From the NCBI RefSeq assembly GCF_018390535.1, contig NZ_JAHBBW010000002.1:434001-498000 (forward strand): a DNA stretch of 64,000 bases, given 5' to 3'. Below, piece after piece: positions 5,005 to 54,664 of the stretch. Position numbers and translations under genes: made by a program. The notes beneath the pieces were generated by a model. The model was not told the DNA's origin. It did no database searches and saw only the letters and a program-made list of their open reading frames with translations. Position 1 is the stretch's first letter, and each line of letters starts with the position of its first letter. This DNA is from Bacteroides propionicigenes. Lineage in GTDB: Bacteria; Bacteroidota; Bacteroidia; Bacteroidales; Bacteroidaceae.

Positions 5005-6905
5005 TGTATGATGTTTATTTGTTTCAGTTCACGTTTGTAGTTTCTCAATGACGGCTTGTGCCCTTTCTCCCTTACGATCTGGCGCATCTGTGCAAAGGTG
5101 TATGCCTTCTCCATGTCCAGGCCGTAGTCCGTGGCGAATGCCGTCATTCCGATATAGCAGAAGCCGAACTTCCGGTGCAGCATGTCGGCCGTATAAGGAG
5201 TCATGTCTTCCGCCAGGGTTACGGGGACAGCCATTCCCCGGATCTTGAACTTCAAGCCCTCGATAAGGGTCCCGCAGTTGTCGCTGTGGTAGGTCAGGTC
5301 CCTGCGGCGGGCGCAGTAACCGATGGTCTCGCCCATGAAGGTGTTGCGGAAGATTTCCGTACGGTTCAGGTCCTTCAACTTCTCGACACCGTAATAGCAG
5401 ACCGCCTGTACGGCTTTCAACGCTTTGTCCACACGGGGTTTGACAAAGCGGGGGTCGTTTTCCGCCACGATCTTTTCCAGCCACGTGCGGTGGAAGGTTC
5501 CGACAGGCACGTCGAACACCTTCTCCGGTGTGCAGTATTTTGAATCCGACCGCGTCATCATCAGATGTGCCGAGGACGGCTCGTATTGTTCTTTCAGGTA
5601 AAAGGCCAGACAGGTATTGCCGACTTTGCAGTAAGTATAGTCGTCACGGCTGTTTTTCAGCGACAGCATCGTGGTTTCCCCGCCGTAGAACTTCTCGGGC
5701 AGTCCGGTCTGTCGGCAGAACTCCGTGAGGAAATGTCCGGGGATGGCACGTGCATAACTGCGCTCCCGGTAGCACTCCTTCGCCATTTGTGGGGTGATGA
5801 ACCGTTTGGCAAAGTCACAGATATGGTGATGGCCGTAATCATACGCCGCCTGCGTGTTCGCGTAGGTCTGGAACTTTTTGGGCATCTGGCGGAACCAGCG
5901 GAAACACGTCCCGTGCTCCATGCAGTAGTCGACAAATTCCCGCGTCCATACATTTTCAGGAAATTCGGGACAGTTGCCGTTTCTTCGGATGAATGCCTTG
6001 CACACTTCCACCGTGAGCAGGGATTGTTCAGTTTCCTCGTCGATATAGCAGTTCGTCTCCCGTTTGCTGTTATCGATGGCAATGACCAGTCTTTCCGGTG
6101 TCTTGAACCGCTTCGGCAACTCCCCGAACATGTAAGGGTGTTTCTCCATCAGCCGGTCCGCCAGCATGTCGTCCAGATATACCGACAACGGCTTGAAAAA
6201 CTGGGGGTCTGTGATGAAGTTTTTTCCTTCGGTCGAACAGACAGCCGCATGGAGAATCTCATAGGAATAGAACCGGGCGGGAACAAGCGAGAGGTCATGT
6301 TCCGCCATCTTGCGGTAGTATGCCGCAGTCTTGAAACGGGACGGCACGACGGCATCGGTAACCGTGCTCAATATTTTCATCCCGTCGAGCATCCCGTAAT
6401 AGAACTCTTGAGTCTTTACCTCAACGGGGACATATCCGAGGATAAGCCCCGTTTTCATGACGGCGTCTGTCCTGCTGTCCGTGTAATACGGGTCGTAAAT
6501 ATAGCTGCGCAAGGCCAGGTATGCCAGTTGCGCATCCCAAAGGCGTTCAGGTATGAAGGCGAGAATGTCGAAATCCCCGCGTCCGTTTCGGATGACCGCT
6601 TCTGCCATTTCTCGGGTAACCATTGCTTCGGGAACGGCCGTGATATTCTTCGTTTTTTTGCGCATGGCGTAGTCACAGACTGCTCCCGAACGGTACGCCT
6701 CCGGAATATTGCGCAGCTCGAAGCTGTGCCAGCTCTCCGTGCTGCCCGCGATGATTCGTTCTATACGTCCGGGTGTGAGGAAACGTCCCGGAATATGGCT
6801 CAGCACCTCTATTTCCTTGCTTTCGACGGCTGCTTCCACGATCTCTTCCGTGAACAGGTGTTCCGGCAGCCATTCTATGGCCGATACGATGTTATTGTGC
6901 CGCAT
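5001..6905 (-). CDS. Large helical-repeat protein, 634 aa
   Basis: The sequence is built of about 30-35-residue degenerate repeats with the signature [IV]P..[FL].T.E.....A (for example at LPEHLFTEEIVEAAV, IPGRFLTPGRIERII, VPEAMVTREMAEAVI, LPKRFKTPERLVIAI, FAKRFITPQMAKECY). This resembles DUF4116-type helical repeats, which form solenoids for protein binding. The last 200 residues change character and contain a GFCYIGMTAFATDYGLD segment. It is one of the largest proteins of the accessory operon and is coupled by a 4-nt overlap to the DpnD/PcfM-like gene. Function unknown. Confidence 0.7.
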   Translation of the reverse strand: MRHNNIVSAIEWLPEHLFTEEIVEAAVESKEIEVLSHIPGRFLTPGRIERIIAGSTESWHSFELRNIPEAYRSGAVCDYAMRKKTKNITAVPEAMVTREMAEAVIRNGRGDFDILAFIPERLWDAQLAYLALRSYIYDPYYTDSRTDAVMKTGLILGYVPVEVKTQEFYYGMLDGMKILSTVTDAVVPSRFKTAAYYRKMAEHDLSLVPARFYSYEILHAAVCSTEGKNFITDPQFFKPLSVYLDDMLADRLMEKHPYMFGELPKRFKTPERLVIAIDNSKRETNCYIDEETEQSLLTVEVCKAFIRRNGNCPEFPENVWTREFVDYCMEHGTCFRWFRQMPKKFQTYANTQAAYDYGHHHICDFAKRFITPQMAKECYRERSYARAIPGHFLTEFCRQTGLPEKFYGGETTMLSLKNSRDDYTYCKVGNTCLAFYLKEQYEPSSAHLMMTRSDSKYCTPEKVFDVPVGTFHRTWLEKIVAENDPRFVKPRVDKALKAVQAVCYYGVEKLKDLNRTEIFRNTFMGETIGYCARRRDLTYHSDNCGTLIEGLKFKIRGMAVPVTLAEDMTPYTADMLHRKFGFCYIGMTAFATDYGLDMEKAYTFAQMRQIVREKGHKPSLRNYKRELKQINIIQ

Positions 6906-7482
6906 ACAGTTTCTTTTTAAGGTTGGACGAACGGACGATTCTCACAAGGCGGCACCCCCGGTAGACATAGAGTATCCTGGATTCCCGTTCGGCGAGTTCC
7001 TCAAGTCCCTGCCAGTGCTGCGGTGTATTTATCTTTTCGAGTCGGACATGGTTGTTCACATATACCGTGATCGGTTTCATGCTGTCATGGGAGGGCGTAT
7101 CTTCGACGAAGAGCGGCTGTTCACAGTATTCTCCCTTGTCCATGACATGCCATCTGCCGTTATCGAACAGGAGGCACGTGTCCTCCATGCGGCCGAAAAT
7201 GTCTGCGTTGTCCGCGATGCGTGATGCGGATTGCCGCGGTGTTTCCCGTCCGTCACGGATCTTTGAAAAACAGTGGACGGTATCGCCGGTTCCTGTCCAT
7301 TTTCCATAGGGTGACGGTCCCAGTTTTTGTATGTCGCCCAGCGACAGCAGGGCATCTACCCGTCTGTCATTGGGATAGAACACCCGGAGTTTCCTCACAA
7401 GGTCTTTTGAAAGCGTCTCATGGAGCGCCTTGATGTGCCGGACACTGCCGTCCGGCAACAGTTTTCCGATTTGTATGCTCAT
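6892..7482 (-). CDS. Hypothetical protein, 196 aa
   Basis: Starts MSIQIGKLLPDGSVRHIKAL and overlaps the next gene by 14 nt. Alpha/beta composition with a basic C-terminus (YVYRGCRLVRIVRSSNLKKKLY). No family recognised. Upstream lies a 130-nt gap in which I see no gene. Confidence 0.68.
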   Translation of the reverse strand: MSIQIGKLLPDGSVRHIKALHETLSKDLVRKLRVFYPNDRRVDALLSLGDIQKLGPSPYGKWTGTGDTVHCFSKIRDGRETPRQSASRIADNADIFGRMEDTCLLFDNGRWHVMDKGEYCEQPLFVEDTPSHDSMKPITVYVNNHVRLEKINTPQHWQGLEELAERESRILYVYRGCRLVRIVRSSNLKKKLYAAQ

Positions 7483-13864: not shown

Positions 13865-14212
13865 TTAAAACCATGAGACATGCACATAGGCATCGCTTTG
13901 GTCACTGCCGTTGATTAGACAATCGAGTACTTCGATAAACTTTTCCCGGTCCATCCCGACCTTTGCCAGGCAGGAATAAAATTCTTCGGCATTCTGCCGG
14001 AAGGTTTCATCCTGTTCTGAGATATGTTTTCTTAGCTGCTGCAGACCCGAACGGGCTATTTCGAAGTCATCGGTATAGGCGTCTTCTGCGGAGTTATCAA
14101 CTTCGAACATTGTCAGGATATCATAAAAGATATCCTGACCGTCCCCGCCATACATACCCGGATATTTGTATTCGATTTGCCAAACTCTGGCTACATGTAG
14201 TTTTCTGGCCAT
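13865..14212 (-). CDS. Hypothetical protein, 115 aa
   Basis: Begins MARKLHVARVWQIEYKYPGMYGG. N-terminal beta strands are followed by an acidic helical segment (EIARSGLQQLRKHISEQDETFRQNAEEFYSCL). It shares a single base with the following gene's stop at 14212. Function unknown. Confidence 0.65.
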   Translation of the reverse strand: MARKLHVARVWQIEYKYPGMYGGDGQDIFYDILTMFEVDNSAEDAYTDDFEIARSGLQQLRKHISEQDETFRQNAEEFYSCLAKVGMDREKFIEVLDCLINGSDQSDAYVHVSWF

Positions 14213-19136: not shown

Positions 19137-19157
19137 TTTCTCACCTGTTTACAATTA

Positions 19158-19306
19158 ATGGCACTCAAACCCCTAGCGCGTATCTTTATAGTCCTGATAA
19201 ATACAGTAGGACTTCGGTCCTGAACCAGGTAGTTGCCTGGCTCAGGACCAAGCTTGAATACTGTATCTTGAATTTGGGTCCCTCGTGCATATGCGGTCGC
19301 GCTACC
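19158..19306 (-). ncRNA. Array unit 5 (most diverged)
   Basis: Hairpin GGU-AGCGCG-ACC (19306-19295); box UAAAGAUACGCGCUA (19188-19174). The box differs from the consensus, yet its CGCGCU pairs perfectly with the altered loop AGCGCG. Variable part: outer helix 19266-19259 with 19208-19201 and inner hairpin of 8+5 bp (19249-19216) with loop CAACUA; an alternative AGGAC/GUCCU hairpin overlaps it. The end is set by a weak AUGCAC/GUGCCAU helix. Confidence 0.8.
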
Positions 19307-19314
19307 TTCTGTTC

Positions 19315-19480
19315 AGGGGACTCATCCGGACGGCACATCCCTTTAAAAACCTGATACGGGCCGCGAGTACAGCTGGAACCTGTGTCATCTGTCGTGTTAG
19401 CAGGAGATGACACAGGCTCCAGCCGTGTGAATTGCGGCTCTGTTGAAATCCCGGCCTTGCCCCCTTTGCCCTGTGCTGTT
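19315..19480 (-). ncRNA. Array unit 4
   Basis: The 5' loop sequence AGCACA is present (19477-19472) but its stem is poor. Closing helices AGGGG/CCCCU (19465-19461 with 19319-19315) and CCGGG/UCCGG; variable hairpin of 6+12 bp (19423-19372) with loop CCUGCUAACACGAC; box UAAAGGGAUGUGCCG at 19345-19331. The 5' boundary is approximate. Confidence 0.82.
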
Positions 19481-19485
19481 CTTTT

Positions 19486-19652
19486 TGCGGTTCCCGGAAT
19501 GCCGGCACGTTCCTTTACAGGTCCGATGTCTGCTGTGGCGGAAGCCGGAATGGCGCCGTCGTATAACGTTAGGGATACGACGGCGCGAGACGGGCTTATC
19601 GGGGACAGCAGGCTGAATCCATTCCCCCGAACCGCACGTTCCCGTGCTGGAA
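19486..19652 (-). ncRNA. Array unit 3
   Basis: Hairpin UUCC-AGCACG-GGAA (19652-19639); closing strands UGCGGUUC (19636-19629) and GAACCGCA (19493-19486), with an inner GGAAUG/CAUUCC helix; variable hairpin with a perfect 12-bp stem (19586-19575 with 19564-19553) and loop CCCUAACGUU, inside CUGCUGU/ACAGCAG; box UAAAGGAACGUGCCG. Here the box has C where other units have U, and the first loop has the matching G. Confidence 0.88.
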
Positions 19653-19658
19653 AAGACT

Positions 19659-19825
19659 GAAAGTTCTCATAATACCGGCACATGGCTTTATGCTTCCGAT
19701 GTATCCCGCGTATGGGTCTTCTGCGGAGTCCGAAGGCGACGGTCAGCCGCCTTCAGACTCGGAAAGAAGACGTTGGTACGCGGGATGCCCAAACCTATTC
19801 CTTGAACTTTCCCGGTGTGCTCCGG
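19659..19825 (-). ncRNA. Array unit 2
   Basis: Hairpin CCGG-AGCACA-CCGG (19825-19812); closing strands GAAAGUUC (19811-19804) and GAACUUUC (19666-19659); a multi-part variable hairpin from 19786 to 19703 with stems of 10, 7, 5 and 7 bp and apical loop GCUGACCGU; box UAAAGCCAUGUGCCG at 19690-19676. The first-hairpin loop pairs with UGUGC of the box. Confidence 0.88.
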
Positions 19826-19826
19826 T

Positions 19827-20000
19827 AACGGGTGCGGGACAGACGGCACATGACTTTAATTTCCCGATACATTACAGGCGCAGCCAGAATCGAGATGGGA
19901 TTAACCGGGTGTTAGACCGGTTAATCTCGATATGGATTCTGGTTATAAGCCTGTAACGTTGAATAGCCTGCCCGTCCACCCGTTCTGCCGTGTGCCCGGC
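19827..20000 (-). ncRNA. Array unit 1
   Basis: Minus-strand order: hairpin GCCG-GGCACA-CGGC (20000-19987); closing helix 5' strand AACGGGUG (19984-19977) continued by CGGGCAG; inner helix GCCUGUAA/UUACAGGC (19956-19949 with 19879-19872); variable hairpin 19942-19884 with loop UCUAACAC; box UAAAGUCAUGUGCCG; closing 3' strand CACCCGUU (19834-19827). The six-base loop GGCACA pairs perfectly with UGUGCC of the box. Confidence 0.88.
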
Positions 20001-20005
20001 GTAAC

Positions 20006-21277
20006 TTATAGCGATGCCACCAGCGTGTTGTACACCGCCCGGCTGGTCAGAAGGGCGTTACGCATGCAGCCGACAGTCAGGTAACCCGGTATGTCCCGGT
20101 CTGTTTTATCGCGGTTGGCCTTCACGTTGCGTCCCCGTCCCCGGACGATGCAGCCATCCGGTTTGGTTCGGACATATCCCAGACCGCCGATCTTGCACCT
20201 GCCCGTCTGAATGGCTCTAAAGCAGTCCATCACGAACTTGTTCAGCTCGTTGAGGTCACTCTTCACATTACAGACCGGCAATACCTGTATCGCCCAGCTG
20301 AACTCGCCCTTGTACAGGTAACGGTTCACGGCGTCCACGGCTTTTGCCAGTGTCGTGTCCCGGCAGCGGATTGTCCGCCGCTCGATCTCGTGCTGGAAGG
20401 TCTTGATGCGTGATGACGAGAGCGAGACCATGCCGCCCTTGATACTGAATCCTAAGAACTTGAACCAGACATCGGCTGCCAGGTATTCCACTTTCTTGGG
20501 ATTTAGCTTCATGGATTTATCTTCCAGGCGTTTTTGGAGTGTGTCCATCGCTTTTTCATAATCCTTGCCGATAAAAAGCATATCGTCGGAATACCGGACG
20601 TAGTAGCCGTTCATTTGTGACAGTTCCCTGTCTAGGTCGTAGAGCAGTACATCCGCCAGCCAGCTAGCCACAGCACAACCCTGTTTCAAGGATTGATACT
20701 TGCTTTGCAACCGGTTATCTTCATCGAAATAGAGGTCCGAGTGGTAATATTTCCTAAGTACGTCTATCAGGGCAGACTGGCCGTGTTTGGCCTCCACCTT
20801 GTCGAACGCCTCGTCGATGAACCGTATCGGAACACTGTCGAAGTATTTGGAAAGGTCGGACTTCCAGCCCAGACAGCCGCTATTGCCGGTTTCTGTCATC
20901 CGGTGGCTGACTTCCGTAACTACCTTGCCGCACCCTATACCGGTCTGGTAGGACTTGCACGAAGAGTGCAGCATCTCCGGCATCAACTCGAAGAGCAGGT
21001 CGTTGGCGATACCCAGTACTACGCGGTCCATCGGCTCGTTTACGTACACTGTGCGGAACTCACCGTTGTCCTTGGGTATCTGCGCCGTGTGGGGAGGGGA
21101 AATCTCGTACTTTCCCCGGCGCATGGCATAGGCCATCGCCATACGGGTATGCTCGTCGGTCAGCCGAATAAGTTGGTCTTTCCTAATGTCTTTCAGCACG
21201 CCTTTCTCAATGGCCTTCGTCCACTGGCCTATGTCGAAGAACATTTGCAATATCTTGTCTTCATTCATAGCACTCAA
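20006..21277 (-). CDS. Reverse transcriptase of unassigned type, 423 aa
   Basis: RNA-templated DNA polymerase by motif content: IPKDNGEFR (residues 67-75, motif 1), DLSKYFDSV with catalytic Asp141 (motif 3/A), LKQGCAVAS (197-205, motif 4/B), YVRYSDDML with Asp231-Asp232 (motif 5/C), LNPKKVEYL (motif 6/D) and WFKFLGF (271-277, motif 7/E). About 140 residues follow, including an arginine/lysine-rich stretch near 380-395. I see no maturase X domain, endonuclease domain or protease. YSDD instead of YADD or YMDD, and the lack of a template/variable repeat, argue against group II intron and DGR types. It overlaps the upstream gene by 17 nt and is followed 5 nt after its stop by the RNA array. Confidence 0.93.
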   Translation of the reverse strand: MSAMNEDKILQMFFDIGQWTKAIEKGVLKDIRKDQLIRLTDEHTRMAMAYAMRRGKYEISPPHTAQIPKDNGEFRTVYVNEPMDRVVLGIANDLLFELMPEMLHSSCKSYQTGIGCGKVVTEVSHRMTETGNSGCLGWKSDLSKYFDSVPIRFIDEAFDKVEAKHGQSALIDVLRKYYHSDLYFDEDNRLQSKYQSLKQGCAVASWLADVLLYDLDRELSQMNGYYVRYSDDMLFIGKDYEKAMDTLQKRLEDKSMKLNPKKVEYLAADVWFKFLGFSIKGGMVSLSSSRIKTFQHEIERRTIRCRDTTLAKAVDAVNRYLYKGEFSWAIQVLPVCNVKSDLNELNKFVMDCFRAIQTGRCKIGGLGYVRTKPDGCIVRGRGRNVKANRDKTDRDIPGYLTVGCMRNALLTSRAVYNTLVASL

Positions 21278-29948: not shown

Positions 29949-31116
29949 TGAGCGCATTTTCGGCATATCGTATCTTTGCACGAGTTCTACTCATCGTGTC
30001 GTGGCTCTGCGCTGCTTTACTCCAATTTCGGCAAGACGCTTCTCTGGCACGTTCCGGATCTTTTCCAATCCGGCAGCTAACAGTAAGGCGGTGGGCGGCT
30101 GGTGATTATGGGCATAACATTGGCAATGCTCTTTTCTCAAGCTCCGTGCGGACTGTTTTTCCGCTACCGTGCATTTTATCTCCGTGCGCACAAGGGCGCA
30201 ATTATGGCATTATTCTTGCACGTCCTTTTCAGTGGCGGTATTCTCAATACTCCCAGCGACTTGCAAAAGTCTTGACGTATTTCCGGCACTCGGAATAAAT
30301 ACGATTTATCCCGTTCCATAAATTTCCCTACTTTCGTAGGTTGGCAATACTGGTATTATTGCCCCGTGCGAAGCGTGGTTATTTAACGCACTCTTTAAGC
30401 GTACCTAAACGCACACGGTGTTGTTTCGGGTGTTACCCTTTGACGGCTCAACAACTCACTTTCGTGTAAACGCCGTTTTTGTTTCTCGCTCTCGGCGGTC
30501 TTTGCTTTTCTGTTTTTTAATTCTGTTTTTTACTATCTATTTTTTTATTCGTTTTTCTCCGTACTTGTTTGCCGTTTGTTTGGCTTTCGAGTACATGACT
30601 ATTATAAAACCGTTTTTCAGAACTGCAAAACTTTTTGAGAAAAAAAATTTGGAACGTTCCAAAAACAGCCTTTTTGCGAATATGGAACGCACGCGCGCGA
30701 AGTAAATTTGTAAATAGCTGAATATCAATAAAATAGAAAAAATGATTTTCTTTGAAAAAAATTTTTCCTTTGCAAAAATCAAAAAAGCCCCGTTTCAACG
30801 TATGTATAAAATCAAAATCAGTTTTGTCTATTGATTATCAGATTATTAGCTGCTTAAAATGGATAAAATAGGACTGAAAAGATTTTTTTACTTTCAATTT
30901 GTAAGCAAAGATAATGTAAAAGACGTTTTTAGGCTTACTTTATACAAAAGTAAACCTAATAAATTATTGATATTCAATGGTGTAATAAAAATAAAAAGAT
31001 TAGGGAGGGTGTACCCTCGGGTGCGGATTCGGTCTCTGTCCTCGGGCCGTTTTTTCAAGTCCGGTTTTCCAAAATGGCTCAAAATGCGGCTTTCGGATTG
31101 AAACTGTAAGCAGGTA

Positions 31117-32996: not shown

Positions 32997-34244
32997 ATGA
33001 TTATTCAGTTCACAGTCGAAAATTTCCTTTCGTTCAAGGAGCCGGCGACCTTGTCTTTGGCTGCTTCCGCGCTGAAAGAAAAACAGACCCGGTCCGATGA
33101 GATTGTTTTTGAGCTTGAAGGTACGAACCTCTCTTTGCTGAAGAGTGCGGTCATCTACGGGGCCAATGCCAGCGGGAAATCGAATCTGGTCAAAGCGCTC
33201 GATTTCTTCAAATGGTTTGTCATCAATTCCTCCAAAGGCGTGCAGTCCGGCGAAAGCATACGGGTGGAAAGTTTCCGTCTCAACCGGAGGACGGAACAGG
33301 AGCCCAGTTATTTTGAGGCGGTCTTTGCCGACGAAACGGTCCAATACCGCTATGGGTTCGAAGTCGATGAAAAACGTGTACACCGGGAGTGGCTTTATCA
33401 AAAGGGCAACAAGCGCAAGGCAAAGGAGGTGGAACTGTTCCTGCGTGACGGCGATGAGTATGAACTGCATCCCAAATTTTCGGTCGGCAAAGAGGTTGTC
33501 GCCAAAAAAATGGTGCGCGACAATGCGCTGCTTCTTTCCGTGGCAGCACAGTTCAACGAAAGCGTCTCGGTGGAAATCATGGGATGGTTGGCCAACACCA
33601 CGATTGTTCTTGGCAGCAGCGACGAGCGGATTTGGGAAATGGCGATAGCCCAGATCGATGATCCGTCCATGAAAAGGCGTATTGTGGAGTTTGCCCGGTT
33701 TGCAGACTTCGGAATCGACGACATACGCAAGGTTGACAATACAGTCATCAGTTCACACCAGCAATATGACGAGGAGGGCAACGCCACGAAGACGGTCACT
33801 TTCCCGTTCCGCGTAAACGAGTCGGAGGGTACGATCAAATACTTCTCGCTGGCTTATCCTATAATCGACGCGTTGGATCATGGCAAAAGGCTGGTTGTCG
33901 ACGAGTTCGACTCGAAAATGCACCCTCTGTTGACAAGTCGCATCATCGGGCTGTTCAATTCCAGAGTGACAAATCCCAGGAATGCACAGTTGATTTTCAC
34001 GACACATGACACCAACCTGCTTAATGCAAGCCTGTTCCGCAGGGATCAGATCTGGTTTACACAGAAAGATTCGTTTGGAGCCTCGGAACTCTATTCGTTG
34101 GCGGAATACAAGGTTCGCAACAGTGCACCTTTCGAAAAGGAGTACCTGATGGGGAAATATGGCGGTATCCCTGTCATCGGCCAGTTTGAACGGTTATTTG
34201 ACCTGAGGGAGGAAGAATATGGCAGCACGGACGAACAAGCGTGA
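32997..34244 (+). CDS. AAA ATPase of an RloA/AbiLi-like defence pair, 415 aa
   Basis: N-terminal FTVENFLSF followed by a Walker A motif GANASGKSN (about residues 54-62) is the hallmark of AAA_15/OLD-like ATPases. Later LAYPIIDALDHGKRLVVDEFDSKMHP gives the Walker B aspartate/glutamate (VVDEFD), and FTTHDTNLL is the family's H motif. Together with the RloB gene that overlaps its end by 26 nt, this matches the RloA/RloB (AbiLi/AbiLii) pair implicated in phage defence by abortive infection. The pair sits upstream of the antirepressor, flanked by two related terminators, and is probably cargo that protects the host from other phages. Confidence 0.88.
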   Translation: MIIQFTVENFLSFKEPATLSLAASALKEKQTRSDEIVFELEGTNLSLLKSAVIYGANASGKSNLVKALDFFKWFVINSSKGVQSGESIRVESFRLNRRTEQEPSYFEAVFADETVQYRYGFEVDEKRVHREWLYQKGNKRKAKEVELFLRDGDEYELHPKFSVGKEVVAKKMVRDNALLLSVAAQFNESVSVEIMGWLANTTIVLGSSDERIWEMAIAQIDDPSMKRRIVEFARFADFGIDDIRKVDNTVISSHQQYDEEGNATKTVTFPFRVNESEGTIKYFSLAYPIIDALDHGKRLVVDEFDSKMHPLLTSRIIGLFNSRVTNPRNAQLIFTTHDTNLLNASLFRRDQIWFTQKDSFGASELYSLAEYKVRNSAPFEKEYLMGKYGGIPVIGQFERLFDLREEEYGSTDEQA

Positions 34245-34851
34245 TCCACGCGCGGCACGGACACTCAGGCGTATCAGTTTTGTCCGTGAGGTCAAACAAT
34301 CCTTCCTGATCATCTGCGAGGGGGTAAATACGGAACCGGATTATTTCAATGCATTTCGCCTGACTTCCGCCAATATTAAAGCGGTAGGCCAGGGACTCAA
34401 TACGGTAGGTCTTGTCCAAAAGGCTTTACGGATGAAAGAAGAAGAGCGGAAGAAAGGACGCGAGTATGACCAGTGCTGGGTGGTATTTGACAAGGATGAC
34501 TTTCCCGATCGGGATTTCAACCGGGCTATCGGTATGGCGGAAGCCGGTGGCATGAGGGTGGCATACAGCAACCAGGCTTTCGAGTATTGGTTCTTGCTGC
34601 ACTATAACCTGGTACAAGGCCCGATGCACAGAAATCAATATGAAACAAAGCTATCCGGCTTGTTGGGCTTCTCCTACAACAAGGAAGCCGGTACAGGCGG
34701 TCGTGTTTTCAGGGAGCTGGGCGGTAAACAGGCTCAGGCCATCACGAACGCAAAAGCCGTATTGCGCCGAATGGAGGGAATACCGCCGGCACAGGCGGAA
34801 TCTTCGACAACGGTGCATCTTCTTGTGGAAGAACTGAATAAGTATATTTAG
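34219..34851 (+). CDS. RloB-like protein (AbiLii-type partner), 210 aa
   Basis: FLIICEGVNTEPDYFNAFR at the N-terminus is the characteristic RloB opening (an acidic Toprim-like strand with EG..TEP.Y). WVVFDKDDFPDRDFNRAI and the SNQAFEYWFLLHYN segment also fit the family. It is thought to act as the effector nuclease-like partner of the ATPase; the exact reaction is not shown. Start at 34219 overlaps the ATPase gene by 26 nt. Confidence 0.88.
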   Translation: MAARTNKRDPRAARTLRRISFVREVKQSFLIICEGVNTEPDYFNAFRLTSANIKAVGQGLNTVGLVQKALRMKEEERKKGREYDQCWVVFDKDDFPDRDFNRAIGMAEAGGMRVAYSNQAFEYWFLLHYNLVQGPMHRNQYETKLSGLLGFSYNKEAGTGGRVFRELGGKQAQAITNAKAVLRRMEGIPPAQAESSTTVHLLVEELNKYI

Positions 34852-36268: not shown

Positions 36269-37402
36269 CTATGCACCCGGTGGGCAGTATTCAGGGTTCC
36301 TCTTGCGCCACAGTTCTATGATACACTCCCGTCCGGCCTGTGTCCATCGTTTGGTGGATCCGAAAGTATATACCTTGCCCCGGCTGTTCTCCCACGTGTA
36401 AGGCACATCGCATTGCCAGGCCCGGCAGGAAGGAAAGACCACCCATTGCCGCTTCTCGTACTTGCAGATGCCCTCTTCGGCAAGGAACTGGTGCAACTGT
36501 CGCGGCGATATGCCGAGTTCGTCAGCGATGCGCGTGCTCTTGAACCAGTCCCTGTTCTCGATAAACTCCTCGTAGAATACGATTTTCGGCAGGGATTCAC
36601 TCACCACCTTCCGCAGTTCCAGAATCAGTCTCGTCGCCGATTCCATATCCTGCGGCATGGGACAATCCATACAGGGCAGACCGGGTGCCGCCACCCTGGG
36701 GCGTTCGCGTACGATTGTCTTCCCTCGTTTCACGGAGAGTTTGCCGATAGCCTCGCCCAACCATTCCGCCAAAGACAGGTCAGGGGCGATCCATCTGGCC
36801 AACGGTATGACAAGCGGTGATTCCAACCAGGTCGCACCGTGCCCCCGCCCCCGTGTGGTGAAGACTTGCGACTCGTATTTCCCGGTATGTCCGTTGCCGG
36901 CCATTTCCCTGCGGAGCATATCCGTGGAAGCGATGCGTAGCCATTCAGACGGGATTTTCCCGAAGTGCATCGTGATCTGCGTGGCGTTGACCATCAGCTT
37001 GTCGCCGACACGCCGGAACGTGACGGGGAACCCTTCCTCGAAGTGCATGACGATGTCGTCCTGCGGGACGGCGTGCAGCTCCCCGGCTTCCAGTTCCAGA
37101 AGCTTGTTGCCCCACACTTCCAATTCATCAAGCAGGTCACGGGGTATAATAGTCTCCTTGCGTACCAGTTGTAAAAGCCGGCGCATATCGATGGGACGGA
37201 AACCCCACTGTTCCCTGCCGTTTTTCCGGAAACTGATTTTCAATGCCGTCGGGCAAACACGGGCGATGGCGCCGTTTTCAAGCAGTTCGTCCCGCTTGAG
37301 TATATCGCATATATCCACGGCGCAGATATGGAGCTGGCCGTTATGGTTCCGGGAAACCCTTATGTTCCAGTCCCGGAACGGAACATTCCTATTTTCCCTC
37401 AT
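36269..37402 (-). CDS. Phage antirepressor with Bro-N-like, KilA-N and KilAC domains, 377 aa
   Basis: Start at 37402 (MRENRNVPFRDWNIRVSRNHNGQLHICAVDICDIL). Residues 1-115 resemble a Bro-N domain; VTFRRVGDKLMVNATQITMHFGK through LARWIAPDLSLAEWLGEAIGKL (about 130-230) is a KilA-N DNA-binding domain; the C-terminal third (ENRDWFKSTRIADELGISPRQLHQFLAEEGI...TQAGRECIIELW) is a KilAC domain. Such proteins counter the prophage repressor and favour lytic growth. The gene stands in a minus-strand regulatory block directly upstream of the divergent virion operon. Confidence 0.9.
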   Translation of the reverse strand: MRENRNVPFRDWNIRVSRNHNGQLHICAVDICDILKRDELLENGAIARVCPTALKISFRKNGREQWGFRPIDMRRLLQLVRKETIIPRDLLDELEVWGNKLLELEAGELHAVPQDDIVMHFEEGFPVTFRRVGDKLMVNATQITMHFGKIPSEWLRIASTDMLRREMAGNGHTGKYESQVFTTRGRGHGATWLESPLVIPLARWIAPDLSLAEWLGEAIGKLSVKRGKTIVRERPRVAAPGLPCMDCPMPQDMESATRLILELRKVVSESLPKIVFYEEFIENRDWFKSTRIADELGISPRQLHQFLAEEGICKYEKRQWVVFPSCRAWQCDVPYTWENSRGKVYTFGSTKRWTQAGRECIIELWRKRNPEYCPPGA

Positions 37403-37757
37403 AGGTATTTCCTCCTTTCTTTTGGTTATCAGACTTACGTTTGTTTTCAAGCAAGGCTCTCTTATGTGCCATCTTGCGCACCGGATAGTACGTGCGTTTC
37501 TCGCCGCAAAGGGCGTCATAATCTTTCAGCATCAGTGTGCCGAGGTCGGCCAGCTCGATTTCCACATCCGGATGCAGATGCCTGAAATAGAGTCCGCCGC
37601 TGCATACATACTTGCCCGTGCAACAGAATGAGATAGCCTGCAAGTTGCCTTTTGTCAATTCCGCCGCGCTGTGCAGCGAGCGCGTGACCGCTACAAGAAC
37701 CTGTGCCCCGTTGAAGATGAGCACCATCTTGGGTCGTTTAAATGTGCTGCGTCTCAT
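37389..37757 (-). CDS. Hypothetical protein, 122 aa
   Basis: Begins MRRSTFKRPKMVLIFNGAQVLVAVTRSLHSAAELTKG; an alternative start is at residue 11. Basic C-terminal tail (KRALLENKRKSDNQKKGG). It overlaps the antirepressor by 14 nt. A LHSAAELTKGNLQAI(S)F motif recalls the homeodomain-like DNA-binding or NUMOD-type segments seen in phage proteins, but this is uncertain. Confidence 0.6.
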   Translation of the reverse strand: MRRSTFKRPKMVLIFNGAQVLVAVTRSLHSAAELTKGNLQAISFCCTGKYVCSGGLYFRHLHPDVEIELADLGTLMLKDYDALCGEKRTYYPVRKMAHKRALLENKRKSDNQKKGGNTYEGK

Positions 37758-38478: not shown

Positions 38479-39801
38479 ATGGCTACATCGGACAAATCAT
38501 TTAACGGGGAACTCTTGGAGAGTATTTTTAAGACCTCCAAAAAGACAATTCAGGAGTATGTCCGCGAAATCGAGCGCAACAACCGCTACCGTTCATGCCG
38601 TCAGGATACCGGCTCGGGATATATTCTCGATGACCGCGCCCGGCTCATTGACCTGTATGAAGCCTGCCTGCAACAGGACGCTCATATACGTTCCGTTGTC
38701 GAGACACTGGAAAGCCAGATTCTCGGCGACCGCTATATGCTTGCCCGTGTAAACGAAAAGGGAAAATACATCAAGGACGTGGCGAACTCCCTGAAGATAC
38801 AGGGTTCGCAGTTCGACAAGATAATCAAGGGCATAGTGGAATCCAAGCTCTACGGGTACACCCTGCTTGAAATCATGCCGCATACTGACCCCAGAACGGG
38901 CAGGCTGGCGGAAGTCAACATCATCGAACGGCGTAATGTGTTGCCGGACCAGAAAACGGTACTGAAGCGGCAGGGACTGTGGGAGCCGCATTGGGATTTA
39001 CATGACCCGGCATATTACCGTTGTTATGTACTGGTAAACTCCGGCGACTTGGGACTTTTTTCCGCCACGACCCCTTTGATACTGGCCAAGAAATTCACGG
39101 TGGCCAACTATGTGAACTTTTCCCATACTTACGGACAGCCGATTATCCACGGAAAGACGGTCAGCGAGAGCAACGCCGACCGCAAGAGGCTGGCTAACGA
39201 GATAGCCAACGCGGCACAGAACAAGGTGGTGGTTACCGGCATTGAGGACGAGGTCGATATCAAGACATTCACCATGTCCAACTCGGAAAAGATATATACC
39301 GGGCTTATCGAGTTTGTGAACAAGGAAGTTGCCAACCTCGTGCTCGGCTCCGAGTCGATGGCCGGAGGGATGCAGTCGTACGTGGGTTCCACGAAAGCAC
39401 ACCAGGACATTTTCCGCGACCGTATCGAAGTCTACCGTCGGTATATCGAAAACGTCATGAACGAGGAGATAATCCCCCGCCTGGTGGCTATCGGGTATAT
39501 CCCCGGAGGATTGGAGTTCCGGTATTCGAACCGGATAGAGATGAGCAACGAGGACCGCATCAAGCTCTATTCGCTGATCACGGACAAATATGAAGTGGCG
39601 GCCGATGAGATCGAGAAAGAGTTCGGTATCAATGTGGGCCGGCAGCTCAATGTTATCCCGGGATTAGGTTTCGGAGCCGAAGGCGGCTCATCCGGTCTCA
39701 GCCACAACGACCGGGGCATCATGTCGGACGAGGAGTATTTCCGGCGTTACGGACGCCCCCGGGGGGCGAAGGTCGGAAATTTTCTGCGGGGAGCGGAATA
39801 G
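38479..39801 (+). CDS. Portal protein (DUF935, Mu gp29-like), 440 aa
   Basis: Forms the dodecameric DNA channel at one capsid vertex. IEFVNKEVANLVLGSESMAGG, AHQDIFRDRIEVYRRYIENVMNEEIIPRLVAIGY and the C-terminal RNRIEMSNEDRIKLYSLITDKYEVAADEIEKEFGI are typical of the DUF935 portal family. Length fits the family. First gene of the virion operon; unusually, no terminase gene precedes it in this window. The next gene's frame runs on from its end. Confidence 0.92.
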   Translation: MATSDKSFNGELLESIFKTSKKTIQEYVREIERNNRYRSCRQDTGSGYILDDRARLIDLYEACLQQDAHIRSVVETLESQILGDRYMLARVNEKGKYIKDVANSLKIQGSQFDKIIKGIVESKLYGYTLLEIMPHTDPRTGRLAEVNIIERRNVLPDQKTVLKRQGLWEPHWDLHDPAYYRCYVLVNSGDLGLFSATTPLILAKKFTVANYVNFSHTYGQPIIHGKTVSESNADRKRLANEIANAAQNKVVVTGIEDEVDIKTFTMSNSEKIYTGLIEFVNKEVANLVLGSESMAGGMQSYVGSTKAHQDIFRDRIEVYRRYIENVMNEEIIPRLVAIGYIPGGLEFRYSNRIEMSNEDRIKLYSLITDKYEVAADEIEKEFGINVGRQLNVIPGLGFGAEGGSSGLSHNDRGIMSDEEYFRRYGRPRGAKVGNFLRGAE

Positions 39802-41921: not shown

Positions 41922-42204
41922 AATCCATGCAGGAGATTTATCCGCACTGCGTATAAACAGACATGAATCAGCAGATAATACAAGACTCATGATACATTTT
42001 CTGTACTTGCTGAATTTAGAATGTTCAGCATGCCGGTCTTGATACAAATAGTTGCAACCGGTCTGTAATTTGAACAATCTATTATACTGTAAAGATAATC
42101 GCATTTCCATAAATGGATGGATTCTCATATTTCCACTTCCATAAATAGCAGTGCAAAACCTTTTCTTTTTCCACCGCCTACTCTTGTTCAAATAACCCTT
42201 GCAT
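41922..42204 (+). other. Intergenic region with hairpin and repeats
   Basis: About 280 nt, AT-rich. A 7-bp hairpin (TGCTGAA/TTCAGCA, 42008-42030) and a direct repeat of TTCCATAAAT (around 42106 and 42140) are present. No gene seen. Possibly a control point between head connector and capsid genes. Confidence 0.45.
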
Positions 42205-43443
42205 ATGGATATGAACACACTTCAATATGTCGTCGGAGAGGCGAAGGCAGGCCAGCCGGCTGTTATCCGTTTCTTCGGTCGCGTGACGGAAGAGACGACC
42301 TCACGTTTCAATGACGAGTTCGACTTTTTGGAAAATATCATCCGTCCCTCCTGTATCCGCGTGTTGATCAACTCGGAGGGCGGCAGTGTCCTTTACGGCA
42401 TGTCCACCTATTCCACCATCGCCAATGCCACGGTGGATACGGAATGTATCATCGAAGGGGTCGCGGCATCGATGGCCTCCATCATCTGGGCGGCGGGCAA
42501 GCGTTCTCTCATGCGTGATTATGCCATACTGATGATTCATAACCCGATGTTGCCGGACGATGACGGAGGGGAACCGTCGGACATGGTAACGGCTTTTACC
42601 AAACAGATCGAGACGATTTACCGGAAACGGTTCGGCCTGAAAGCGGAGCATGTGCGGGCCATCATGGACGGACAGGCAGGAAAGGATGGGACCTATTTCG
42701 ACGCACAGGCTGCCGTCAAGGCCGGCATCATACCTGCGGAGCATGTCATCCATACCTCGAAGCAGCTTTGCCGTAAAGTGCATGACGAGATAGAAGGATT
42801 GACCGATACGGCCGCCATCCAGGAACTGATGAGCCGTGTCAGCGCGGGAAATAAACCTTTCAAAGGCATTGAACCTACTCTTACAGAAACGGAAAACGAT
42901 ATGGCAAACGAAAACAAGACACAAGGCTTTGAGTACGGGGCGATTGCAGCCTCGCTGGGCATGAAGGACGGTGAGGTCAAGGACGTGATGGCACGTATCT
43001 CTGAACTGGCCGCGATGGAACCCAAATACAGAGAAATACAGAAATCACTGAGCGACGCGCAGACCGTCATCGCCGGAAAAGACGCCTCCATCCGGAACTT
43101 GCAGACAGACCTGGCCGCAGCGACGGCACGCCTTTCCGCCTACGAGCAGAAAGAGAAGGACGAGCAGGCTTCCCGTATCGAGACATTGGTGGAGAATGCC
43201 ATTGCAGAAGGCAAGATTGACCGTGAGGCGAAAACGCAGTGGGTGGAGATGGCCGGTTCCAACTTCGAGTTGGCGGAAAGCACGCTGGCTTCCATTCCCG
43301 CGCGGGAGAAAATCTCGAAGGAAATCGCCGATGACCCTGCCAACATCCAGGCCACGGCGGAAGCGACAAAGACCGCCGAACAGCTGATGGCCGAGAAGGT
43401 GGCGGAAGTGGTCGGTGCGGATTTCAAGTTCCGAAAGCTCTGA
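42205..43443 (+). CDS. Prohead protease of the ClpP fold with C-terminal scaffold, 412 aa
   Basis: ATG at 42205 is preferred to the TTG at 42199. Residues 1-180 are a ClpP-like serine protease: FFGRVTEET, INSEGGSVLYGM (oxyanion strand), GVAASMAS with the nucleophile Ser, and MIHNP with the His. It processes scaffold and capsid during maturation. After residue 230 the sequence becomes a coiled coil of scaffold type (ARISELAAMEPKYREIQKSLSDAQTVIAGKDASIRNLQ). Fusion of protease and scaffold is common in such phages. It precedes the major capsid gene. Confidence 0.88.
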   Translation: MDMNTLQYVVGEAKAGQPAVIRFFGRVTEETTSRFNDEFDFLENIIRPSCIRVLINSEGGSVLYGMSTYSTIANATVDTECIIEGVAASMASIIWAAGKRSLMRDYAILMIHNPMLPDDDGGEPSDMVTAFTKQIETIYRKRFGLKAEHVRAIMDGQAGKDGTYFDAQAAVKAGIIPAEHVIHTSKQLCRKVHDEIEGLTDTAAIQELMSRVSAGNKPFKGIEPTLTETENDMANENKTQGFEYGAIAASLGMKDGEVKDVMARISELAAMEPKYREIQKSLSDAQTVIAGKDASIRNLQTDLAAATARLSAYEQKEKDEQASRIETLVENAIAEGKIDREAKTQWVEMAGSNFELAESTLASIPAREKISKEIADDPANIQATAEATKTAEQLMAEKVAEVVGADFKFRKL

Positions 43444-50728: not shown

Positions 50729-50821
50729 CCTGCCGCCGTAAGCTTCCGGTTTGCGGCGGCCTTCGTTTCATAATCTCCGCCCTTGCGGAAAGACTATTCT
50801 TTTAACGCAGTACCCATTACC

Positions 50822-53800
50822 ATGGCTCAGGAACAGAACTATCAGGTCAACTACTCCATCAACGTGGATGCCTCTCAGGGCACCAAGCAGGTTATCGCCT
50901 TCGGTGAGGCGGTAGGCAAGCTGGTACAGGCGAAAGCGTCCCTGACTCCGGCCGTCACGAACATCAAGAATATGATGGACGAGATAGACCGCGTGTTCCG
51001 CACCAAGAACGGCAAGAAACGTAATTTCGATTACCGCCTGACCATCGATACGAAAAAAAGCGAAGAGAAGCTGGAACGTATCAAGGGGTTACTCACGGAT
51101 ATTTCCACGCTTTCCAAAGGCATCAGCCTGACCATCAATGCCGGTCAGGCTTTGGACAGCAAGAAAATCAAGGCCAACGCCAAAAGCCTTTACGAGAAAA
51201 AGGCTGCCGAGATGCGCAAAGCGGAGATCGAAAAGAATGCCGCCTCGTCCGTTGGCACGATGGCAGACGCGCAGAAACGCATTACCAAAGCCATCGGGAA
51301 AATCAACTCCGCCCTGGTTTCCATGGAACGTGACCGGGAACTGCAAATCAAGACCGGGACGGCGGAAAACAGGTTGCAGCAGATACTTTCCCTATTGGGT
51401 CGTATCAAAAGTGCTTCTGTCATTTCTTTCAACATGCAGGGAGGCATACCATCCGAAGGACTCACACCTTCCGTTCCGGTGCCATATGCTCCGCAGGCCT
51501 TCGTAATGCCCGAAAAGGCCCGGCAAAAACTGATGGAACGGCTTTATGCAGGACAGCAGCTGCATCGCCAGAAACTGGTCCACGCGGAGGAGCTCTTTAC
51601 CGCAGACCAGCGCCGTAAGGCGGCTCTGGCAGAAACCGCCGCGGCGGAAAAGCGGCGTGCCGATGAAGCGCGGGCTAAAGAACGGGAGTGCAAGAATGCC
51701 GCCCGTGCTGCGGAGAAAATACGCCGGCAGGCAGAACAGGCACGCCGTAAGGCAGAAACGGAACGTATAAAGGCCGAGCAGGCTGCAAGACGGCAGGAAC
51801 AGCGCAATGCGATGCAGTCCGTCAGGCTCATGCAGCGGGAACATACTGCAGCCGGTACGCTCTACCGCAGTAAACGCCGTGCCGCCATCAACCGTATCCA
51901 GTATTCGAAAGCGCCGTCACTCAGGAACCTCCCGTTCGCTTCGATGCTCAATGCCTATATGGGTTACAGCCTGATCCGTTCGGAACTGACGAAGGCCATC
52001 GACTATTCCAACATCATGGAATCGGCACATTCCATCCTCCGTGTGGCGGACAGCGACCTCAAGACATTCGAGACCCGTTTTGACAGTATGGCCCGTCATG
52101 TCCGTAAAATCGGCATCGACACGAAATACACAGCCGTGGAGATTGCCGGTGCCGTCAAATACCTGTCGATGGCGGGCATGAATATCGAGACAATCAACAA
52201 GTCCATCCGCCCGATCACGAACCTGGCACTTATCGGTGACAACGACGTGTCGTATATCGCCGACCTGGCCACGAACATCATGGCCGGTTATGATATCCAT
52301 AACGACAGCATGGACAGCGTGGCGGACATTATCTCCTCCACCATTTCCCGCTCGAATGTGAATATCGTGGAGATGGCGGAGTCATACAAGATGGCTGCCG
52401 GTTACCTGCGTATGGCGGGCGTGGACTTCACGGAAAGCAGTGCCGCCATCGGTCTTTTGGGCAATATGGGTCTGAAGGGAACGCTGGCGGGAACCTCGTT
52501 GCGTGCTCTTTCCACACGTTTTGCCAAACCTACCAAGGAGGCACAGGAAGTTCTGGACCGCCTGGGCATCCGGTTCACGGAAATGCGCGACATCGAGGGG
52601 GTGCAGGTCGAGAAACTCCGTCCTATAGCGGACATTTTCGAGGAATTGAACAAGAAGGGCGCGTCGATGGCGGATGTCCAGGCAATCTTCGGGAAAATTG
52701 GCGGTAACGCGGCGATGATGTTCCTGAAGAACTACGACAAACTACGAGAACTGACTTCATATAACCGGGGGTCCCAGGGCGTTTCCTCAGAACTGGCATT
52801 GGTAAAGCAGAATACGACCAAGGGATTGTGGGCGCAGGTGACCTCCCAGCTGACCGAAGGGTTCATGCAGGCATACGAGGTGTTGGAACCCTCTATCCGC
52901 ACTGTGCTCCGCACTTTTCTGGCAAAGTTCAAGGCTCCGGAATTTACCCGTGGCCTGGTGTCCATCGGGAATGCCTTGTTGGACATCTTCACCGTGATCG
53001 GCAATATCGGCGCATGGGTGACCCGCAATTTCCATTGGATAGAACCGCTTGTCTTTACAGGCGTTGTCGCGACCCGGCTGTTCAAGGTGGCGGGAGCCCT
53101 GACGAATATCGGCATCGCCATGGGGTTTATCGGCAAACAGTCTGCGGCCACGACATCAATCAGTGTCGTGCAGGGGCTGCTGGGGGCGGGTGGTATCGGT
53201 AAGGTTTCGTTTGCCCAGAAGCGGGCCATCGTGTCGGCCATGCAGTCCGCAGGCGTGGCGGGACGGGGAGCGATGAACCGCGCCTTGATGGCCGGGGGCG
53301 GTGTCATCGGAGCCAAAGGAGTCCTGCAGTCGCTGTTTGCCACACAGGTGGCTACCGGCAGCGGACTGACCGGTGCTGCCGCCTCGTTGAGTGCCATCAG
53401 TACAGGCGCGGTTGCCGCCACGGCAGGTATAGCCGCATTGGTCGGGACTTTGGGATGGGTGGCTTACAAGACCTGGAAGATAAAGGAGGCGAAGGATGCC
53501 GTACTGGAAGAGATCGAATCGAACCGCAAGTACCGTTATCCGTCCATAGAGGCACTTTACTCCTCCCTGAGCGAGACCTATAACATGGCTGTCAAGACAA
53601 AGCGTGCCGTGGACGAGGTCGTTGCCGGCAAAAGTATCGAAGAGGCTTCGGGACATAAAATCGGAGCCTTCACATCCAACTGGTGGGCCGGGTTCTTGGG
53701 GGAATTTGCCATCGCTTCATCTGAGGGGATGGTATCGCGAGACCATGTGTATAACATGGACAAAGCCCGTCAGGATGACATAAGGGATGCGCTTGTCACC

Positions 53801-54664
53801 CTTGCCAAACGCGACAGCCAGACACGTATCGATGCCGCGTACGCCGAGTTCGGGAAGATGGGTACGGTATTGGAAGTGGACGCTTTCCTCAAGACGGTAA
53901 AGGAGCGTTTCGGGCAACAGGAGAAGGATCTCGACAAGTCTTTGTGGCGTATGCAGGATGGCAAGGCCGTCTATGTGAATGATATCGGGGACAGGTCGGA
54001 AGCGGTTGCCGCCCGCACATACGACTATGCCCGGTACATGAACACGCAGACCGTTCCGGAGATTGTGCGTGCCGCCACCGCTTATCGGAATGCCATATCG
54101 AGTGCCGCCAATGCGCATGAGCTGATGCGTAAGGGAGGGTTCGACTTTGACCAGTTCAGGGCCTGGGGATTCGAGCAGGACGAAAACGGGCTATGGAAAC
54201 AGCGGGCACTGGGGCAGAACGCCACCGATGCGCAGCGTATAGACAACATCGCGCATCGCAAGCTGGCACATACGACACTCGTGAAGTTCTTTTCATCGCT
54301 CCGGCAGACTTTCGGAGGTTCGGCGGAGGCAGCCGAGAACATCCTCCGCGTGGCGGGCTTCACTCCCGACCAGTACGGCAACGAACCGGATTCCAACGAT
54401 ACACGTCCGTTTGCTGCCAACCCGATTACCAACACGCATCTGGATGACGGAGGGGCCGGCGGCAACTATTCCGGCACGGGGCGGTTGTCCTCGGCGGCAC
54501 CTAAACAGGTCATCGTGAACATAGAGAGCCTGCTCAGTGTCAGGACCATCGACCTGATGAAGTCGAAGGAGGGGCAGACGGAAGAGATACAGAACCTGAA
54601 AGAACAACTGGCACAGGCGCTCATCGATGTCGTGCATGACTTCGATGCCTCCTGGAACGCATAA
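50822..54664 (+). CDS. Tail tape measure protein, 1280 aa
   Basis: Start at 50822 (MAQEQNYQVNYSINVDASQG); the track frame starts 13 codons earlier at 50783. The longest gene. It contains a TP901-type tape-measure core (MESAHSILRVADSDLKTFETRFDSMARHV...GLKGTLAGTSLRALSTRFAKPTKEAQEVLDRLG), a long coiled coil rich in Ala, Glu, Lys and Arg (about 230-390) and a hydrophobic glycine/alanine-rich stretch near residues 850-900. It sets tail length and is passed into the host at injection. Confidence 0.93.
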   Translation: MAQEQNYQVNYSINVDASQGTKQVIAFGEAVGKLVQAKASLTPAVTNIKNMMDEIDRVFRTKNGKKRNFDYRLTIDTKKSEEKLERIKGLLTDISTLSKGISLTINAGQALDSKKIKANAKSLYEKKAAEMRKAEIEKNAASSVGTMADAQKRITKAIGKINSALVSMERDRELQIKTGTAENRLQQILSLLGRIKSASVISFNMQGGIPSEGLTPSVPVPYAPQAFVMPEKARQKLMERLYAGQQLHRQKLVHAEELFTADQRRKAALAETAAAEKRRADEARAKERECKNAARAAEKIRRQAEQARRKAETERIKAEQAARRQEQRNAMQSVRLMQREHTAAGTLYRSKRRAAINRIQYSKAPSLRNLPFASMLNAYMGYSLIRSELTKAIDYSNIMESAHSILRVADSDLKTFETRFDSMARHVRKIGIDTKYTAVEIAGAVKYLSMAGMNIETINKSIRPITNLALIGDNDVSYIADLATNIMAGYDIHNDSMDSVADIISSTISRSNVNIVEMAESYKMAAGYLRMAGVDFTESSAAIGLLGNMGLKGTLAGTSLRALSTRFAKPTKEAQEVLDRLGIRFTEMRDIEGVQVEKLRPIADIFEELNKKGASMADVQAIFGKIGGNAAMMFLKNYDKLRELTSYNRGSQGVSSELALVKQNTTKGLWAQVTSQLTEGFMQAYEVLEPSIRTVLRTFLAKFKAPEFTRGLVSIGNALLDIFTVIGNIGAWVTRNFHWIEPLVFTGVVATRLFKVAGALTNIGIAMGFIGKQSAATTSISVVQGLLGAGGIGKVSFAQKRAIVSAMQSAGVAGRGAMNRALMAGGGVIGAKGVLQSLFATQVATGSGLTGAAASLSAISTGAVAATAGIAALVGTLGWVAYKTWKIKEAKDAVLEEIESNRKYRYPSIEALYSSLSETYNMAVKTKRAVDEVVAGKSIEEASGHKIGAFTSNWWAGFLGEFAIASSEGMVSRDHVYNMDKARQDDIRDALVTLAKRDSQTRIDAAYAEFGKMGTVLEVDAFLKTVKERFGQQEKDLDKSLWRMQDGKAVYVNDIGDRSEAVAARTYDYARYMNTQTVPEIVRAATAYRNAISSAANAHELMRKGGFDFDQFRAWGFEQDENGLWKQRALGQNATDAQRIDNIAHRKLAHTTLVKFFSSLRQTFGGSAEAAENILRVAGFTPDQYGNEPDSNDTRPFAANPITNTHLDDGGAGGNYSGTGRLSSAAPKQVIVNIESLLSVRTIDLMKSKEGQTEEIQNLKEQLAQALIDVVHDFDASWNA

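Follow-up and report, generated by a model that had tools for sequence, protein, structure and literature searches.

A tandem array of pseudoknotted RNA units behind a UG27 reverse transcriptase in a Bacteroides prophage

To our knowledge, the bacterial reverse transcriptase (RT) systems known so far pair one RT with one RNA. In retrons (msr-msd), an outer stem encloses a long hairpin whose sequence may vary, and the RTs carry the marks VTG and NAxxH. CRISPR and TIGR arrays consist of tandem units with a constant and a varying part. The DRT9 RT works with its own ncRNA. In DRT2, the RT is reported to bind a pseudoknotted RNA encoded next to it, of which it copies a part (PMC12039810). The locus described here lies in a stretch of 64,000 nucleotides, referred to below as the window, and shares something with each of these systems. 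Like DRT2 (PMC12039810), it combines an RT filed with defence RTs and an adjoining pseudoknotted ncRNA, but in place of the single RNA of DRT2 the window carries five separate units, and relatives carry up to about nine. The RT itself does not belong to the Drt2 family: it scores 40.5 bits with NCBIfam Drt2, whose cut-off is 390, and 46 bits with PADLOC Drt2, compared with 763.7 for UG27. As in DRT9 and DRT10, an RT is accompanied by structured ncRNA, and the solved structures closest in fold include that of the DRT9 RT; unlike in these systems, there is an array and not one RNA, and no poly-U or repeat template was recognised in it. With retrons the units share the outer stem around a long varying hairpin; they differ in that the RNA lies behind the RT, is pseudoknotted and comes in several units, and neither VTG nor NAxxH occurs as a string in the window RT protein.

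The RT fold is also shared with diversity-generating retroelements and group II introns. No template-variable repeat pair was found between positions 8000 and 34000, where only two weak pairs of 31-36 bases at 72-77% identity turned up, and no group II intron RNA was detected in the whole window at Rfam gathering thresholds, RF02943 being the sole listing. Like CRISPR and TIGR arrays, the units are tandem and have a constant and a varying part, but the varying part of each unit can pair with itself and is passed on by position, and CRISPR-like near-identical direct repeats of at least 30 bases are absent from 8000-34000. The PADLOC UG27 entry (RT_UG27, RTas346 and RTas337) is strongly matched by the window RT and both of its neighbours; the entry holds proteins only, and the window cassette adds the RNA array. 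The literature that we covered on UG27, RT-adjacent RNA arrays, tandem ncRNAs and Bacteroides phage RTs describes no such array or RNA partner; the paper that introduced the UG names lies outside this coverage.

The UG27 cassette and its prophage

The window is part of contig C2 of an assembly of 4.1 Mb and sits in a prophage, which is recognised by the following genes:

36269-37519: KilA-N/KilAC regulator
38479-39801: Mu-type portal
42199-43443: Clp-type protease
50783-54664: tape measure protein

A region carrying the structural genes shares 99.8% identity with a phage contig of 99.8 kb that comes from human faeces; for the early region of the prophage, the identity is 99.7%, to another contig. 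The cassette lies in this early region, on the minus strand, in the order:

21277-20006, minus strand: reverse transcriptase of UG27 type (PADLOC RT_UG27 profile)
20000-19157, minus strand: array of five RNA units (covariance models R1 and R2)
19136-18657, minus strand: RTas346, 159 aa (PADLOC RTas346, 226.6 bits)
18660-17572, minus strand: RTas337, 362 aa (PADLOC RTas337, 515.7 bits)

The RT matches the RT_UG27 profile over residues 6-423, with the UG26 profile as runner-up at 124.1 bits. PADLOC-DB 2.0.0 files RT_UG27 under DRT, so that host protection is here a database listing. The reading frame opens with a TTG at 21277 and has its next in-frame ATG (MNEDK...) at 21268; the latter is the more likely start, because it yields the 420-residue protein of the database. 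The catalytic residues D141, D231 and D232 are present in all 25 RT rows, and from this conservation DNA synthesis would be expected. The nearest folds of the RT include the GsI-IIC group II intron RT as well as DRT9. The protein is common, since the 90%-identity cluster that contains it holds 2180 sequences, and it is found with 100% identity in L054, L055 and L083, records named Phocaeicola coprophilus, Bacteroides gallinarum and Bacteroides ndongoniae. Identical RTs in three differently named hosts indicate that the gene has recently moved from host to host. A further record with the name B. gallinarum, L062, carries a second, different UG27 locus (82%). In phage BS-TP1 (L002, PQ571274.1; locus 5995-7257), the UG27 RT gene, with eight units behind it, is publicly annotated as 'tail protein'.

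RTas346 and RTas337 are members of the RT cassette. A full frame of each is present in 107 of the 111 loci; RTas346 is absent or cut in L063, L145, L158 and L163, and RTas337 in L063, L070, L135 and L145, several of the affected contigs being cut themselves. RTas346 is joined to the C-terminus of the RT in 13 of the 111 loci, giving fusions of 529-594 aa. These fusions speak for a shared function, and on their account RTas346 and the RT are predicted to be in contact when they work. The predicted structure of one fusion (mean pLDDT 89) again has the GsI-IIC group II intron RT and DRT9 as nearest solved folds. RTas337 begins with a zinc-ribbon-like CPGC start (a weak profile match), and fold and profile comparisons with its predicted structure (mean pLDDT 84) gave no usable match.

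Three further features of the window may be mentioned. The described Rfam Bacteroidales-2 RNA (RF02943, 346 bits) lies at 30047-30483 on the plus strand and adjoins the early region. At 32997-34851 on the plus strand, a gene for an AAA_21 ATPase of 415 aa and the frame of 210 aa behind it may be a prophage-borne defence pair. A TIR-domain protein is encoded at 56980-58182 on the minus strand, opposite to the surrounding tail genes, and is possibly a cargo gene.

The RNA units and their structure

The five-unit RNA array behind the UG27 RT is real. As the sequence-only reading had it, the array starts five nucleotides past the RT, whose stop codon ends at 20006, with 20000 as its first base, and consists of five tandem repeats with a period of 157-173 nt: two covariance models each recover five units, with spacings of 168, 173, 172 and 157 nt between boxes and 172-175 nt between unit starts. 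A mention of six units in that reading finds no support here. All units are on the minus strand:

19827..20000, minus strand: unit 1; P0 20000-19987; pseudoknot 19995-19991 (P0 loop) with 19850-19846 (box); P1 19984-19977 with 19834-19827; P2 19959-19869; box 19858-19844
19659..19825, minus strand: unit 2; P0 19825-19812; pseudoknot 19820-19816 with 19682-19678; P1 19811-19804 with 19666-19659; P2 19786-19703; box 19690-19676
19486..19652, minus strand: unit 3; P0 19652-19639; pseudoknot GCACG/CGUGC 19647-19643 with 19509-19505; P1 19636-19629 with 19493-19486; P2 19611-19530; box 19517-19503
19314..19478, minus strand: unit 4; P0 stem nearly absent (one pair); pseudoknot 19476-19472 with 19337-19333; P1 19465-19459 with 19321-19315; hairpin region 19456-19359; box 19345-19331
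19157..19306, minus strand: unit 5; P0 19306-19295; pseudoknot GCGCG/CGCGC 19302-19298 with 19180-19176; P1 19276-19270 with 19172-19166, less certain; P2 19268-19199; box 19188-19174

Folding, pattern search and alignment give the same plan for the units, which in the 5' to 3' direction consists of P0, the 5' arm of P1, UUYA, P2, AUC, a spacer, UAAAGnnA, the box and the 3' arm of P1. The small P0 hairpin has a loop of six bases (e.g., GGCACA), and this loop pairs with the box (GCACA with UGUGC) to form a pseudoknot. P1, the outer stem, has about seven pairs, then a three-by-three AAG/UGA internal loop and then a second helix. P2 is a long hairpin of roughly 60-100 bases that is different in each unit of an array. 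The purine-rich spacer between AUC and UAAAGnnA measures 7 bases in 98 of the 128 units read. The common box that had been claimed, UAAAGnnAYGUGCCG, is exact in four of the window units, and the fifth reads UAAAGAUACGCGCUA. The pseudoknot is perfect in all five (three GCACA/UGUGC, one GCACG/CGUGC and one GCGCG/CGCGC); the covarying pseudoknot in every unit, the AAG/UGA loop of P1 and the two partner proteins are features beyond those that had been noticed from the sequence alone.

Model R1 was built from 42 seed units, one of them identical to window unit 2, and recovers the five window units, all on the RT strand, with E values from 9.1e-19 to 1.3e-7; in the rest of the same genome it finds no match. 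Model R2 was built from 137 units of distant phage loci, in which the RT is at most 76% identical to the window RT, and recovers the same five units (E 2.2e-11 to 3.6e-5). On 61 other loci (about 397 kb, including 29 weak RT-profile matches), R2 gave a single match, with an E value of 0.52. The long hairpins are far more stable than dinucleotide shuffles (z values of -9.1, -9.1, -7.9, -7.0 and -8.2; for each hairpin, none of 200 shuffles was as good). The earlier description of the units as self-contained structured RNAs is supported.

The pseudoknot is likewise maintained by compensatory changes across homologues. When P0 was picked by its own shape, ignoring the box, five Watson-Crick pairs were found in 90 of 124 units, compared with a mean of 22.4 and a maximum of 34 for shuffled boxes. 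A perfect pseudoknot is present in 150 of 177 ungapped non-seed units (shuffled mean 28.6, maximum 39), with 22 Watson-Crick combinations; in this count, made over 252 matches, 36 were left out for gaps in the ten pseudoknot columns. On the 42 seeds the covariation score was 0.810, while shuffles gave 0.245 and slid pairings no more than 0.180, a score that leans towards structure because the seeds of R1 were chosen with the pseudoknot, P0 and P1 formed; the shape-picked and the non-seed counts are the fairer tests. At places with a single mismatch, G-U is preferred over A-C in P2 (35 to 14, p 0.004) and in P1 (42 to 22, p 0.017), as would be expected if selection maintains the coding-strand RNA; on the same question, plain folding energy pointed in the opposite direction to this mismatch test.

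The P2 hairpins are inherited by position and differ by unit, as judged from sequence comparison. Within the window their mutual identity is 47-61%. When nine arrays were compared, some of them close relatives and two (L056 and L057) holding further units missed by R1, 153 of 180 comparisons gave the P2 of the same ordinal as the best match. The earlier claim that all hairpin stems differ thus holds within one array, but between homologous arrays the stems are conserved by position. Conserved in this way, the hairpins are not a freely changing memory. As a minor point, a stretch of unit 2 (19694-19729) resembles 14059-14094, 5.6 kb away, over 36 bases at 72% with 14 consecutive identical bases, which is near chance level.

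Company of the units and the RT

Relatives of the RT were found at 37 loci among 84,980 species genomes, all with names that we take to be those of Bacteroidales, and on viral contigs, from which the best 80 of 111 were taken; none was found on plasmids at E 1e-30. One distant RT protein record carries the name Bilophila, perhaps through a binning error. In a search of 395 genomes of the class, the UG27 profile scored below E 1e-30 only in the genome of the window itself, and the other 64 matches were weak (best E 4e-23).

Units were searched in 77 sources, picked by eye from 119 (40 + 79), mostly by dropping near copies and cut-off contigs. R1 found units at E values of at most 0.05 in 69 of the 77 loci, and all 252 matches are on the RT strand, although some of them are weak (E 0.01-0.05) or partial (L080, L081 and L086). 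R2 added units in L078, L139, L150 and L151, so that 73 of the 77 loci have units; the four in which neither model found any are L087, L157, L158 and L088, the last a contig of 3.9 kb. The number of units starts at one (L080, L081 and L086); phage BS-TP1 has eight in an unbroken row, and L136 has nine that form two groups. In certain phages, e.g., L072, L084, L136, L140 and L147, RTas337 is followed by some of the units or by the complete set.

Searches that started from the units gave the same picture. Among 393 genomes of the order, units and RT occur in the same three genomes; one extra unit match had an E value of 0.0075, and about three such matches are expected by chance over 393 genomes. 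An 18-base unit motif selected 21 stretches of a viral collection, and the RT is present on all 21 contigs, in 18 inside the fetched stretch and in L095, L101 and L129 according to the viral-contig RT search. A covariance model had been proposed as a check on whether the units are tied to this RT clade, and in the sets searched they were not found without the RT. Since they occur only beside a UG27 RT in these sets, the units are likely to be the RNA partners of the RT.

Possible roles of the array

The explanation that we prefer, with a probability of roughly 0.4, is that the units are RNA partners of the RT, bound through their scaffold, and that the P2 of each unit is copied into a different hairpin DNA. 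The RT would dock on the constant scaffold of each unit, i.e., P0, the pseudoknot and P1 with its AAG/UGA loop, because this scaffold is what the units have in common. The unit-specific P2 would be the cargo and probably the template, giving hairpin-shaped DNA, and RTas346 is predicted to act in contact with the RT. The resulting set of different cDNAs or ribonucleoproteins may act in the conflict of the phage with rival phages or the host; this is a guess, and such conflict seems the likeliest field because this RT is listed among defence RTs and is carried by phages. The company with the RT, the covariation of the pseudoknot, the combination of a constant scaffold with a position-kept hairpin and the precedent of DRT2 favour this explanation, as do the retained catalytic aspartates, the RT-RTas346 fusions and the nearest folds of the RT. 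The missing units in 4 of the 77 loci count against it, and the selection on P2 as RNA counts against a pure DNA product, which needs no such selection.

That selection leads to a rival which we consider a serious one while still thinking it doubtful, namely that the units are RT-bound scaffolds or decoys and not templates. The RT would then copy something else or make untemplated DNA, and P2 would act as RNA by binding proteins or nucleases or by aligning several RTs. P2 is selected as coding-strand RNA much like the scaffold, and some defence RTs are reported to make untemplated DNA (PMC13213688), but a hairpin that is unit-specific and kept by position is unexplained unless each one binds a different partner. 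Another candidate for the template is the single-stranded segment that runs from P2 to the pseudoknot (AUC, some 7 bases and UAAAGnn), which could be a short template copied repeatedly, as in telomerase or DRT10. In telomerase RNA, too, the template lies next to a stem and precedes a pseudoknot (PMC12039810). This stretch does vary among units, but the repeated A-B-A' ends that DRT10 needs were not seen in it (within the single-stranded stretch of 142 units, the longest word shared by spacer and box averaged 3.07, compared with 3.00, and at most 3.19, in shuffles). It is also purine-rich, as the loops of pseudoknots often are, and we regard a short repeated template as unlikely.

We give slightly less credit still to a guide array, in which the hairpin arms would be antisense RNAs or guides against rival mobile elements. 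The constant scaffold with a varying part resembles guide arrays, and 23 of the 24 bases of the P2 5' arm of unit 1 (19941-19918) match the chromosome of the same genome at C1:243623-243646, in antisense orientation to the start of the coding sequence of a gene that presumably has a role in conjugation and whose protein starts MKRIISIWILLLCAG. This chromosomal match, which we regard as a curiosity, was sought with a 20-base pattern and is absent from all of the other 197 genomes, however, and, apart from loci fetched with a P2 word, phage and viral loci totalling 2.2 Mb gave no excess of matches to 181 P2 regions; inheritance of the hairpins by position also speaks against guides. That the array is a coding region in decay, or a series of transcription terminators, is hardly credible. 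Part of it is spanned by an open frame of 165 aa (19186-19683, minus strand), but among the relatives this frame is whole only in the near-identical L058 and L096, is broken in L054 and L094, and elsewhere is absent, fragmented or interrupted by stops. Together with the compensatory changes, which in effect refute a coding origin, this upholds the view that the array is not degenerate coding sequence, and only one weak terminator-like match was found in it (19221-19208).

If the RT does serve each module, this would be a multiplexed system and would provide a natural modular docking RNA for an RT, with an exactly defined pseudoknot; the role of the unstudied UG27 clade would also become directly testable. 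We tentatively go a step further, though with more doubt than confidence, and suggest that the cassette may represent a class of its own, a multiplexed retro-RNA system. Tandem interchangeable cartridges, each a pseudoknotted dock with its own hairpin, would be used by the RT and two helper proteins to make several DNA hairpins or ribonucleoproteins at once, each directed at a partner of its own in conflicts of the phage with its host or with other phages, and lineages would enlarge or reduce the set between one and about nine cartridges. One UG27 RT is accompanied here by a row of RNA modules with a common dock and different cargo, in phages that are widespread in the gut.

A shorter arrangement is seen in the rumen relatives L080, L081, L082 and L086, in which the RT is followed by a single short unit. 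The RTs of L080, L081 and L086 are 52-57% identical to that of the window, and the unit match of L082 is weak (E 0.16). These loci are possibly the simplest form of the system.
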